From Tuwongella immobilis (GTDB lineage Bacteria; Planctomycetota; Planctomycetia; Gemmatales; Gemmataceae): a stretch of 64,000 nt of DNA. Below, one piece after another: positions 23,529 through 27,944 of the stretch (position 1 is the first letter of the stretch; every line of letters starts with the position of its first letter). A model generated the notes under the pieces. The model worked only from the letters and a program-made list of their open reading frames with translations, was not told the DNA's origin and made no database searches. The stretch spans positions 2,952,920 through 3,016,919 of the forward strand of contig NZ_LR593887.1 of NCBI RefSeq assembly GCF_901538355.1, read 5' to 3'. A program made the translations under genes and the position numbers.

Positions 23529-23939
23529 TTAGCGGTGGTTGTCATGGCAGGCCTTGCAGGACTTCGACAGTTTGCCGAAGGCTGATTTGAAGCCCGCATC
23601 GTCCTTCTTGTCCGCAGCGGTGTGCAGAGCGGTCGCGTCGGTGGCATAGCTCTTGGTCAGCTTGGTCCACGAAGCCTTGTCGCCGACTTCCGGTTCGTTC
23701 TTGGTCAGCGCGGTGGCGAGGTCATCGTATTCCTTGGCCAGCGGGGCGAGTTTGGTGTAGTCCGCTTCGCCCGACTTGGTCAACTTGGCGATTTCCTTGT
23801 GAATCCCCTTCTTGCCATGCAGCTTTTGCATGATCTTGCCCGTGCCGATTTCGCCATCGGCAACGACCAAGCTCGGCAGAACCACCACGCCCGCGGCCAA
23901 CACCAGGAAGCCAGCAATCTTCGTCATCAAATTCCGCAC
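23529..23939 (-). CDS. Small periplasmic cytochrome c (cytochrome c'-like)
   Basis: 136 aa, starting at a GTG with GAGGAG 8 bases upstream. The signal peptide spans ~1-28 (AGFLVLAAGVVVLPSLVVADG). The mature ~108 residues are all helical and lysine-rich, ending in the single heme site CKACH (Cys128, Cys131, His132) five residues from the C terminus. A helical bundle with a C-terminal CxxCH is the cytochrome c' / c556 pattern. The expected N-terminal Met or other axial ligand cannot be fixed by eye (Met ~38 in GKIMQKLHGKK is a candidate). Likely electron carrier or gas-binding protein. It converges on the CobW-family gene. Confidence 0.8.
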   Translation of the reverse strand: MRNLMTKIAGFLVLAAGVVVLPSLVVADGEIGTGKIMQKLHGKKGIHKEIAKLTKSGEADYTKLAPLAKEYDDLATALTKNEPEVGDKASWTKLTKSYATDATALHTAADKKDDAGFKSAFGKLSKSCKACHDNHR

Positions 23940-25186: not shown

Positions 25187-25219
25187 CGGTTTCTGATTTT
25201 TGGCAAAGGAATGCCGTGC

Positions 25220-25870
25220 ATGGCGACAACACTGCTACTCGTTCGACACGGGGCCACGCCCAATAACCTTGCGGTGCCCGCAAAACTCCAAGGGCGACGC
25301 ACCGATCCCGGCCTCGCCCCCATCGGCATTCGTCAGGCCGAGTCCACTGCGGAGCTGCTTCGTGGCATTCCGATTCACGCCGCGTTCGCCTCGCCGCTTG
25401 AGCGTGCGATGCAAACCGCTCACATCATCGCCCAGCCGCACGACTTAGCCGTTCAAGCGGTACCCGAATTGACCGAATGCGATGTCGGGCGATGGGACGG
25501 ACTGGATTGGGCGACGATTGCCCAGATGGATGCCGAGGCCCACGACCGCTACCATGCGAATCCGGCGGAATTCGGATATCCCGAAGGTGAGAATTTCGCG
25601 CAAGTCTTTGACCGAGTTGCGCCGGCATTGGATGAACTGTTAGATCGACATGATGGTCAGACGATCTTGGCTGTCTCGCATCATGTCGTCAATCGCGTCT
25701 ATCTGGCGGTTGCGTTGGGGCTGTCCGTGTCGCAAGCCCGCAAGTTCTCGTTGGATAATTGCGGGGTGTCGGTGGTGGTGCGGTCCAACGGTAAGAATAA
25801 GGTGCAAGTCCTGAACAGCTCGATTCATCTTTTTGGGATCGGCGAAGGGGCGATGGCATCCGCCGCGTGA
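25220..25870 (+). CDS. Histidine phosphatase family protein (phosphoglycerate mutase-like)
   Basis: Start at 25220, 9 bases after AAAGGA; the ATG at 25211 sits too close to that site. 216 aa. The catalytic RHG motif is LLVRHGATPNN, the second Arg is in SPLERAMQTA, the acid is in LTECDVGRWDGL, and the second catalytic His is in LAVSHHVVNRVYL. This matches broad-specificity phosphatases such as CobC, PhpB or alpha-ribazole phosphatase rather than true mutases. It follows pdxA, which may hint at a phosphorylated cofactor substrate. Its last 46 bases overlap the convergent membrane-protein gene. Confidence 0.85.
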   Translation: MATTLLLVRHGATPNNLAVPAKLQGRRTDPGLAPIGIRQAESTAELLRGIPIHAAFASPLERAMQTAHIIAQPHDLAVQAVPELTECDVGRWDGLDWATIAQMDAEAHDRYHANPAEFGYPEGENFAQVFDRVAPALDELLDRHDGQTILAVSHHVVNRVYLAVALGLSVSQARKFSLDNCGVSVVVRSNGKNKVQVLNSSIHLFGIGEGAMASAA

Positions 25871-26904
25871 TTGGGTGCCGACGGCGAATCGACGGCGGGG
25901 ATCGCTTCGCCCGTTTTCTGCGGACCGGAATCCGGCGGGGCGTCGGTGGCAGGCTGATCGGCGTCGCGGTCCCGAATGCGGCGTTCGATCTCCGCAATAT
26001 CATCGTCGATTTCTTGCAATTCTTCGAGTTTCAACTCCCGCTCGATGCGGAGGCGGGCCAAGCGTTTCTCCAGATTCGTGCCCAACACCCGTCCGACGAT
26101 TTCCAACAGCATAAACGCATGCCACGCCTTCATGAGCAACCCGCGCAGCCGATACAACTTGTTCATTCGTGCCAGTTGTTCCGGCGAGATGGCGCGGCCC
26201 AATCGCAGCAGGCGAGCGAGTGGGGCGGCATCCACCCAGTGCGTCAGCAGGAATTCCAACATCGGCAGGATCACAATCGAGGCATCCAGCCAACGCTCTT
26301 TCAGAAATCGCGTCAATTTCGGGGCAACCGCACATTTCAGAATGAATTCGAAGGCGAACGCGACCCAAATGATGGCGATGCCGGCTTGCAGCACCAGTGC
26401 GAGGACCGGATTCTCACGGACCAGATCTTCTTTCGTGTATTCGATGACGAGAATCGGGAGCAGTAGCGCAGCGCACACAATCATCGGCACGCTAAACCCG
26501 CGTTCGAGTTTGCGGGCGAGTTCCACGGAGATCGTCTGAAATCCCAATCGAGGCAGCCACAATTGATTTCGGCGCGTGCGGCTGCGGCTCCCCATTCGCG
26601 CGGGTGGAAACAGCAGCACCACGGCGAAGCGACCCCACTCGTGACGGCGATTGAGACAGCCGGATGGGGCCAACAGCCGCCATAATCCTTCGGCGAAGAA
26701 GATCGGCCACAGAAAGAGAACGCCGTCGAGAAGAATCGCCTTCTCGACCGCAGTTGCACCCGGCCAACCGTATCGATGAATCAACCCAGCGACCAGCAGC
26801 AGGTAGCAGACGCTGAGCACAAACATGATGGGTGAGAGTCGATCGCGTGGCAGTGTGGCCGGATCGGTGGTTACTTCCGGCGTGGCAGTTTCGGTGGCCA
26901 TCAC
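25825..26904 (-). CDS. Voltage-sensor-domain-like membrane protein with C-terminal coiled coil, no pore
   Basis: 359 aa. Two hydrophobic helices (~25-46, 58-80) are followed by a basic loop and then four helices resembling a voltage-sensor domain: S1 (~138-156, ending IEY), S2 (~168-191) with Phe183, Glu186 and Lys190 in the FxxExxxK charge-transfer pattern, S3 (~204-222) with Asp207 in RWLDASI, and S4 (~228-248) with Arg231, Arg234 and Arg237 at every third position. No S5-pore-S6 region or potassium selectivity filter follows. Instead ~277-312 is a charged coiled coil, then a Pro/Ala-rich disordered tail. In known biology this order (sensor then coiled coil) is that of Hv1 proton channels; annotation pipelines often call relatives ion transporter. 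Likely co-transcribed with the upstream zinc-ribbon gene, 29 bp away. Confidence 0.65.
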   Translation of the reverse strand: MMATETATPEVTTDPATLPRDRLSPIMFVLSVCYLLLVAGLIHRYGWPGATAVEKAILLDGVLFLWPIFFAEGLWRLLAPSGCLNRRHEWGRFAVVLLFPPARMGSRSRTRRNQLWLPRLGFQTISVELARKLERGFSVPMIVCAALLLPILVIEYTKEDLVRENPVLALVLQAGIAIIWVAFAFEFILKCAVAPKLTRFLKERWLDASIVILPMLEFLLTHWVDAAPLARLLRLGRAISPEQLARMNKLYRLRGLLMKAWHAFMLLEIVGRVLGTNLEKRLARLRIERELKLEELQEIDDDIAEIERRIRDRDADQPATDAPPDSGPQKTGEAIPAVDSPSAPNHAADAIAPSPIPKR

Positions 26905-26933: not shown

Positions 26934-27944
26934 TTATCGGGAGTAGAGGTCCAAAATCAACGCGAGCGGGATGGCGATTCGGCGATCAAGCGAATTTTCG
27001 GAATCTTCGGTACAATCCAGCACATTTCGCCCTTCGATTCGCTCTTTGCGATTCACTTCGCCGATCCACTTGGAATCGGCATCCAATATGCGGAAATTCG
27101 TGCGAATCAGCCAGCGTGTCAGTTGTTTCAACAGGGGAATATCCAAAAACGGCAGCGAGAATCGCCGCAACAGCGGGGTGATGTAGGCATGTTCGTAGGC
27201 TGATCCGATGCGTCTGCCTTTGGCATCGACGATGGTGATGCGATTGAGCAACATCGAGAGCAGCAGACTGCGGCGGAATCGGGCAAGCACTTTGCCATCA
27301 CCGCGTTTCAGGGTGAATACCTTGGTCAGGGTGGCCCATTCGGTGGAGCCTTCGACTTCGAGCAGGACGAATTTCCCGGCATCATCTTCGTTGATGGTCA
27401 ACTTGCCACGTCCGCCAATCATTCCAAAGAATGTGGAACTCACCAGCGCCATGCCCAGGAAAAACACCGTGAGAATTCCGGAATTGTCCCCTTGGTGGCC
27501 GGCGAATTGTGCCGCTTGGAACACCATCGACACGCAGAAGCAGCTCGCCATCGCTGGCCCGAGAAAGAACAGCGCAATCCAGCCGAGGATCGAAATGCGA
27601 TACGGTGCACGGGCGAATAGGATCGGCTCGCCGTAGGCATCGCCGATTTCATAGCAGCCGTTGATGCCGATTCCGACGGGCTTGAACGTGTAGCGTTCGT
27701 GCTGGAACGGATCGGAGTCCGGCGAATCGGGGTCACGTTCCCAAGATCGCTTTTTCGTGAAATCGTCTGCCACGACTTCAAAGGCAGGTTTGGAATCGCG
27801 CGAGGTGGGATCGAATTCGAGTTCGATCGGGGCATCGACCGGAATGGTCGCACCGCAGGCTTTGCAACGAATGCGCTTGCCAGCGATGGTATCCGGGACA
27901 TCGTAAACCGTTTGACATCCAGGACATGTGACGGGAATCGTCAT
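26934..27944 (-). CDS. Zinc-ribbon protein with tubby/LURP-like (scramblase-related) C-terminal domain
   Basis: 336 aa. The N terminus is a zinc ribbon of the MJ0042 type: CPGCQTVYDVPD and CKACGATI. After a ~60-residue acidic linker there is a split beta-domain: YEIGDAYGEPILFARAP before two hydrophobic helices (~116-140, 153-176), and VDAKGRRIGSAYEH, FRILDADSKWIGEVNRKE and ALILDLYSR after them. The alternation of short strands with GxxIG turns resembles tubby-C-like/LURP or phospholipid-scramblase-related domains. Membrane location follows from the helices. Function unknown; the domain match is by pattern only. It precedes the voltage-sensor-like gene in a likely two-gene unit. Confidence 0.55.
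   Translation of the reverse strand: MTIPVTCPGCQTVYDVPDTIAGKRIRCKACGATIPVDAPIELEFDPTSRDSKPAFEVVADDFTKKRSWERDPDSPDSDPFQHERYTFKPVGIGINGCYEIGDAYGEPILFARAPYRISILGWIALFFLGPAMASCFCVSMVFQAAQFAGHQGDNSGILTVFFLGMALVSSTFFGMIGGRGKLTINEDDAGKFVLLEVEGSTEWATLTKVFTLKRGDGKVLARFRRSLLLSMLLNRITIVDAKGRRIGSAYEHAYITPLLRRFSLPFLDIPLLKQLTRWLIRTNFRILDADSKWIGEVNRKERIEGRNVLDCTEDSENSLDRRIAIPLALILDLYSR

Follow-up and report, generated by a model that had tools for sequence, protein, structure and literature searches.

Gene and distribution

The gene at 25825–26904 (minus strand) of the window, by which we mean the whole 64,000-nt stretch of Tuwongella immobilis DNA analyzed, raises the question of whether a bacterial voltage-sensor domain (VSD) can occur without a pore and, if so, what it would be used for. 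Passages of a 2023 review (PMC10377628) state that every known prokaryotic VSD, "verified by database searches," comes with a pore, and place the origin of Hv channels in an early eukaryote; a section of another paper (PMC4878010) describes a motif search for VSDs that extends to bacteria. No pore-less bacterial VSD was reported among the literature matches listed (open-licence papers).

The gene begins with GTG and encodes 359 amino acids followed by a stop codon; the parts of the protein described below are given with their window coordinates, all on the minus strand. The first-pass annotation had proposed a pore-less VSD in a bacterium, with a coiled coil after it. This arrangement was supported, and it was conserved in the class of T. 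immobilis, in which family matches at E ≤ 1e-3 were found in 99 of 397 genomes (its own included) and in 38 of 185 genera. The matches in genomes G331, G463, G472, G474, and G578 were weak or partial, and 94 genomes remained at E ≤ 1e-20. The protein was single copy in a search of its own genome (6.69 Mb, one contig), and a relative with 43% identity is encoded by a Gemmataceae MAG. In the phylum sample, the family search matched 13 of 199 genomes, among them G110, G168, and G191, where the matches were Kv-type channels (loci L107, L103, and L115, at the same places). A profile of the VSD alone matched 54 of 294 phylum genomes: the 17 genomes with scores of 151–185 bits held the pore-less family (16 in the class, G077 alone outside it), against 47.5 bits at most for the other matches. 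The gene is a member of a conserved planctomycete family.

A set of 83 loci yielded 66 distinct homologues at E ≤ 1e-25, repeat fetches of the same protein having been removed before counting and L011, L012, L013, L074, and L075 having been left out (they missed this threshold). Two homologues with interrupted frames (L022 and L038) were then removed, and all conservation counts refer to the remaining 64. Alignment sets A2, A3, and A4 held 54, 50, and 45 of these 64, hand-picked mainly by thinning near-duplicates.

Homology of the voltage-sensor domain

The Pfam family Ion_trans matched residues 141–241 of the protein over profile positions 8–111 of 241 (E 0.0054, below the curated cut-off) and matched 24 of the 64 homologues at E ≤ 0.1, with a best value of 4.6e-5; PKD_channel matched 10 of the 64. 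In searches of other planctomycete genomes, the VSD-only profile found Kv-type channels with per-genome E values down to 4.1e-12. Against PDB sequences, all 40 distinct matches of the VSD-only profile (E ≤ 10) were voltage-gated channels for Na or K, a few proteins accounting for many of the matches, and none was significant alone (best E only 0.042). These alignments placed Phe183 and Glu186 over the F and E of S2, and Asp207 over the Asp of S3. The C-terminal half of the family profile was aligned by hhalign to 14 Kv-type VSD segments over 120 columns (probability 98.6, E 8.2e-16), a value that is flattered because the choice of segments relied on a profile of this very stretch; the E values of the genome searches are unaffected. 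The protein by itself gave no useful match to single PDB sequences and no NCBIfam match at E ≤ 0.01 (one weak match, E 0.059), and three weak NCBIfam families each matched one or two other family members. By homology, residues 127–254 (approximately) are a VSD related to those of Kv-type channels.

Absence of a pore unit

The VSD is followed by an amphipathic continuation of S4 (residues 255–276; 26077–26142), in which R272 was nearly invariant, by a coiled coil (residues 278–316; 25957–26073), recognized from heptad conservation and in the AlphaFold2 model, and by a C-terminal tail of 43 residues (317–359; 25828–25956) without predicted secondary structure. Positions 282, 285, 289, 296, 299, 303, 306, and 310 of the coiled coil were hydrophobic (L, I, V, M, F, or A) in 59 to 64 of the 64 homologues, position 292 being the exception (26 of 64). 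The first-pass annotation was thus correct in placing a coiled coil, and no pore helices, after S4.

No pore unit was found after S4 in the 64 homologues, in which hydropathy windows of 19 residues beyond residue 255 peaked at 1.48. The median of the members was 1.06, and the segment ahead of the coiled coil has approximately 20 residues of moderate hydropathy. Hydropathy by itself does not settle whether they enter the membrane, since the median of S3 is 1.31 (23 members long enough). This segment could not accommodate S5, S6, and the pore loop joining them. As a control, all 14 Kv-type channel proteins scanned exceeded the Ion_trans cut-off and reached profile positions 219–239 of 241, the pore part, whereas the match in the T. 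immobilis protein stops at 111. Of these 14, 12 came from the 13 distant loci (L103–L115) taken from the VSD-only search (up to positions 219–234; 8 of the 12 also matched Slo-like_RCK and TrkA_N), and two were L121 and L122 (up to position 239). A search for the K+ filter pattern in the Kv-type proteins gave nothing useful. Bacterial Kv-type six-transmembrane channels, which combine a VSD with a pore and often with RCK/TrkA domains, are thus like the family in VSD sequence, whereas the family has no pore and carries an N-terminal VSD repeat and a C-terminal coiled coil. By its sequence, the family contradicts the statement, made in the passages of the review cited above (PMC10377628), that a pore accompanies every prokaryotic VSD.

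The thirteenth distant locus, L114, encodes a giant VSD protein of another kind. In proteins of this kind (approximately 1,330–1,415 aa), a long N-terminal region is combined with a VSD whose S4 ladder is rich, and Pfam gives no match to a pore. In the Pfam scan of four of their genes (L119, 1192–5436, minus strand; L118, 1631–5830, plus strand; L117, 1914–5909, plus strand; L120, 1022–5242, minus strand), Ion_trans matched the VSD part only in all four (profile positions 2–132 at most), with E values from 7.5e-8 to 3.2e-4 and two of the four above the cut-off. Of the 199 genomes in the phylum sample, 40 had a relative at E ≤ 1e-10, and none of these 40 belonged to the class of T. immobilis. 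This giant planctomycete family is possibly another pore-less sensor.

Charge-transfer residues and S4 ladder

The residues that the first-pass annotation had named (Phe183, Glu186, Lys190, Asp207, Arg231, Arg234, and Arg237) were all found at these positions of the 359-residue frame, and their conservation differed. S1 (residues 127–157; 26434–26526) has an invariant P150 and an acid at position 155 in 59 of 64 homologues. In S2 (residues 166–193; 26326–26409), W180 and the charge-transfer site formed by F183 and E186 were invariant, and in S3 (residues 205–223; 26236–26292), P214 was invariant and position 207 was acidic in all 64 (60 D, 4 E), as had been expected of a conserved Asp207. Loss of Glu186, which was to speak against a sensor, was not seen (Glu in 64 of 64). 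Lys190, also named as part of the charge-transfer pattern, is not a family feature: position 190 was K or R in only 22 homologues and M in 37. P100, R103, W116, and P118, all outside the VSD core, complete the list of invariant positions. In a standard VSD, S2 runs inward and S1 and S3 run outward, and the acids of the family fit this topology. The loop charges agree with a cytoplasmic location of the S2–S3 loop and of the corresponding S2′–S3′ loop in the N-terminal half.

S4, as delimited by sequence (residues 231–254; 26143–26214) and aligned with the S4 of Kv channels, carries a basic residue at each third position from 231 to 252, and its model confidence is low. Among the 64 homologues, Arg was found in 57 (position 231), 48 (234), 43 (237), and 34 (240); position 243 was Gln in 50; and the ladder continued at 246 (36 R, 20 K), 249 (51 R, 4 K), and 252 (61 R). 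When only columns present in the T. immobilis protein were counted, the phase of three over 231–253 was basic at 368 of 506 places, against 1 of 506 and 2 of 442 in the other phases. The arginine ladder of the first-pass annotation therefore stood as a whole, every member having at least four basic residues in S4, but not residue by residue: 231, 234, and 237 were all basic in 30 of 64, and at least three of positions 231, 234, 237, and 240 were basic in 52 of 64. The length of S4 also differed between family members.

Because the gating-charge residues are kept and the pore is absent, we infer that the useful output must be movement. Our best reading of the family, held at slightly under even confidence, is a dimeric, non-conducting voltage switch that would resemble TMEM266 in layout. 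The S1–S4 domains of some TRP channels serve as scaffolds or as ligand- or lipid-binding modules, and the family could similarly be a retired sensor, its VSD fold kept as a membrane scaffold or binding module with a ladder that no longer moves with voltage. The variable length of S4, the arginines lost at single sites, the invariants of the linker (P100, R103, W116, and P118), and the absence of an attached effector domain in the Pfam scan of the T. immobilis protein agree with such a role, but a pure scaffold would need neither Glu186 nor the acid at 207 nor so strict an S4 phase. We consider a retired sensor rather unlikely.

N-terminal half

The two additional N-terminal helices reported by the first-pass annotation were present in the AlphaFold2 model as S1′ (residues 15–44; 26773–26862) and S2′ (residues 52–78; 26671–26751); what the annotation had missed is that they resemble the VSD that follows them. 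When residues 16–125 were aligned by hhalign to residues 128–275, a match over 85 columns with one single-column gap was obtained (probability 88, E 3.1e-6, score 37.5). The register places W66xxF69xxE72 over W180xxF183xxE186 and P100 over P214, and position 72 was acidic in all 64 homologues. Scores were at most 20.2 in 60 full column shuffles and at most 24.3 in 60 shuffles of eight-column blocks, which keep the hydropathy layout; reversed profiles scored 9.8 and 10.1, and a profile with the helix order swapped scored 22.1. Halves taken from a separate alignment pair gave a similar result (probability 86, E 5.2e-6). When the rows were split, the probability within the 28 rows nearest to the T. 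immobilis protein was 17.6 (score 24.8, approximately the block-shuffle maximum) and within the other 36 it was 54.9; with one half of the protein drawn from each set, the probabilities were 14.8 (N-terminal half from the 28) and 62.9 (N-terminal half from the 36), in the same register. The strong signal therefore needs the whole family.

The N-terminal half was also compared with the Kv-type VSDs, which had been chosen without use of this half. The alignment covered 43 columns (probability 32, E 4.7e-4) and scored 27.2, while 60 block shuffles scored no higher than 22.1; it spans S2–S3 into the first S4 arginine, P100xxR103 lying over PxxR. Against the PDB, the N-terminal half alone gave chance-like matches only (acetylcholine receptor, E 0.059), and against the VSDs of the giant family it gave no match (probability 0.17).

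Taken from these alignments, the N-terminal half (residues 16–106; 26587–26859) is a degraded, in-register copy of the VSD, with S1′, S2′, and a short S3′, that stops where the first S4 arginine would be; the chain can thus be read as two VSDs in tandem, the first of which has lost its S4. S3′ is a short, broken helix (residues 86–105; 26590–26649) with the invariant P100 and R103. It is followed by a hairpin linker (residues 114–124; 26533–26565), in which W116 and P118 were invariant and W122 was nearly so. The family is thus a case of VSD duplication without a pore. TPC and Nav/Cav channels likewise have more than one VSD per chain, each paired with a pore unit; the family, unlike these, has two VSDs, one of them degenerate, and no pore.

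The possibility that the N-terminal helices are a displaced pore domain was rejected, because S1′ and S2′ align in register with S1–S2–S3 and the loop joining them (residues 45–51) is too short for a pore helix.

Predicted structure

AlphaFold2 models were obtained for the T. immobilis protein (mean pLDDT 82.3, pTM 0.70) and for homologue L070 (mean pLDDT 87.6, pTM 0.76). S1′, S2′, S1, S2, S3, and the coiled coil were confident, and the pLDDT of S4 (residues 231–254) was approximately 58–62 in the first model and approximately 47–58 over the equivalent residues of L070. S1–S3 were packed together, but S4 was not reliably placed. For L070, the residues aligned with 233–246, which are part of the ladder, were modelled as coil, and the last helix before the coiled coil (L070 residues 215–242) corresponds to residues 247–274 of the T. 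immobilis protein.

In a Foldseek search of the PDB, neither model had a match at E ≤ 1e-3 (best E values, 0.16 and 2.0). In the VIA comparison of the T. immobilis model, rows 1–15 were voltage-gated channels, headed by NavMs (Z 9.8, 94 residues, 2.7 Å), and an unrelated ABC transporter stood in row 16 (Z 7.7). For L070, the top match was Nav1.7 (Z 8.1, 126 residues, 3.0 Å), followed by CatSper, Cav1.1, NavMs, SLC9C1, NavAb, KCNQ2, TPC1, and KvAP; rows 1–40 and row 42 were voltage-gated channels, TPC, CatSper, or SLC9C1, many of them the same protein (Z 8.1–5.7). Row 41 was TRPM4, and unrelated proteins began at row 43 (Z 5.5). These Z values fall in a range common for helical bundles and alone would not prove the fold.

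Most of the L070 alignments reached residue 241–244 (approximately) or further, which corresponds to approximately 273–276 of the T. immobilis protein. The helix in the place of S4 is therefore probably the low-confidence helix 247–274 and not the ladder. On these models, the arginine ladder (231–252) may not be the helix that lies in the membrane. The low confidence of S4 and the partly coiled ladder of L070 weaken the reading as a voltage switch and raise that of a retired sensor.

Proposed mechanism and comparison with known voltage-sensor proteins

A voltage switch of the kind we propose would consist of a Kv-type S1–S4 VSD without a pore, preceded by a duplicate of the VSD worn to approximately two and a half helices. 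S4 would extend into the amphipathic helix and then into the coiled coil, through which the protein would form a dimer. Upon a change in membrane potential, the S4 arginines would pass Phe183, Glu186, and Asp207, and this movement would be passed on to the coiled coil and to the cytoplasmic linker (R103, W116, P118, and W122). Coiled coil and linker would then change their contact with a putative partner, and no ions would be conducted. Pore-less VSDs with a cytoplasmic continuation are also found in Ci-VSP and TPTE, from which the T. immobilis protein differs by the absence of an enzyme domain (no phosphatase match in Pfam up to E 1); it has just the coiled coil and the tail after the VSD and its continuation.

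The first-pass annotation had likened the protein to Hv1, a comparison that held for the layout but not beyond it. Hv1/VSOP and the family both have a VSD and a coiled coil with no pore, and both have an acid and a Phe in S2 and an acid in S3. Unlike Hv1, none of the 64 homologues had D or E in S1 (residues 137–154) or Trp in S4 (residues 229–246), and the family adds the N-terminal repeat; the S4 of Hv1 has three Arg, whereas that of the family is basic at up to eight positions. Passages of the review (PMC10377628) give two marks of Hv1, an acid in the middle of S1 and a Trp in S4 (motif RxWRxxR), and name the S1 carboxylate as a minimal requirement for its selectivity. With the marks taken from this description, orthology with Hv1 was rejected, since both were absent in 64 of 64. 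No Hv1 entry was among the PDB matches of the VSD profile (E ≤ 10). The full-profile PDB search gave 3wkv ("Ion channel") at E 0.2, aligned with the final part of the profile, which includes the coiled coil; part of PMC6392501 cites this entry as an Hv1 structure. No Hv1 chain was among the VIA rows listed for either model, which does not exclude Hv1.

The same residues bear on whether the family is a bacterial channel that conducts protons (or cations) through the VSD, Hv1-like in work and not in ancestry. The plan of a VSD and a coiled coil without a pore is that of Hv1, and a truncated Shaker that keeps the VSD alone is described, in a passage of PMC13095418, as giving omega currents (PMC5092046 was among the literature matches listed). 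The S1 acid at 155 could act as the carboxylate, but it sits at the predicted end of the S1 helix. S4 Trp is absent and Lys190 is not conserved. The lack of a counterpart to the S1 carboxylate of Hv1 in residues 137–154 of all 64 homologues makes a role as a proton channel less likely. We regard conduction through the VSD as very unlikely.

The proposed non-conducting switch resembles in layout TMEM266, a vertebrate protein that parts of PMC6392501 and PMC13095418 present as a functional sensor with apparently no channel. By this description, TMEM266 and the family share a VSD, an S4 running into a coiled coil, and the absence of a pore. Unlike the family, TMEM266 is eukaryotic, is reported in the same passages to be closer to Nav, and has, beyond the coiled coil, approximately 250 more residues, as well as a Zn2+ site. 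We tentatively suggest, at near-even confidence, that these proteins are stand-alone bacterial voltage sensors, derived by duplication of a Kv-type VSD and by loss of the pore (as opposed to its never having been present), giving a voltage-to-protein switch that acts via the coiled coil and arose separately from Hv1, TMEM266, and VSP. A small bacterial protein of this kind would offer a direct test of a voltage sensor that signals to a protein instead of to a pore.

Genomic context

The remaining reading is that of a regulatory subunit whose VSD would serve a pore encoded by another gene, for example the Ion_trans_2 protein of the same genome. Above the Pfam cut-off, Ion_trans_2 matched once in the T. 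immobilis genome and Ion_trans not at all, which would suit such a pairing. Against it, the two genes lie approximately 700 kb apart, and none of the neighbors of the VSD gene was found again in the comparison with 39 other loci; we consider a subunit role the least likely of the readings, and quite improbable. The Ion_trans_2 protein itself (L123/L116, about 0.7 Mb off) was the sole Ion_trans_2 match of the genome at E ≤ 0.01 (E 3.3e-12).

Neighborhoods were compared over 40 loci (ORFs of at least 90 aa, blastp E ≤ 1e-6, coverage of at least 50%). No operon partner emerged: no other ORF of the window, including the upstream ORF at 26934–27944, clustered with any of the 39 other loci. The largest shared neighbor families, the gene and its overlying ORFs aside, comprised seven loci of one syntenic group.

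The upstream ORF (26934–27944, minus strand) lies 29 bp from the VSD gene on the same strand and might be co-transcribed with it. Its N-terminal zinc ribbon (Zn_ribbon_4, E 2.3e-6, below the cut-off) precedes what appear to be membrane segments. On the other side, a gene of the histidine phosphatase family (25211–25870, plus strand) is convergent with the VSD gene, and the two overlap at their 3′ ends by 46 bp (25825–25870). A small ORF at 23529–23939 (minus strand) begins with a signal-like sequence, carries a CxxCH motif close to the C-terminus, and is presumably a c-type cytochrome.
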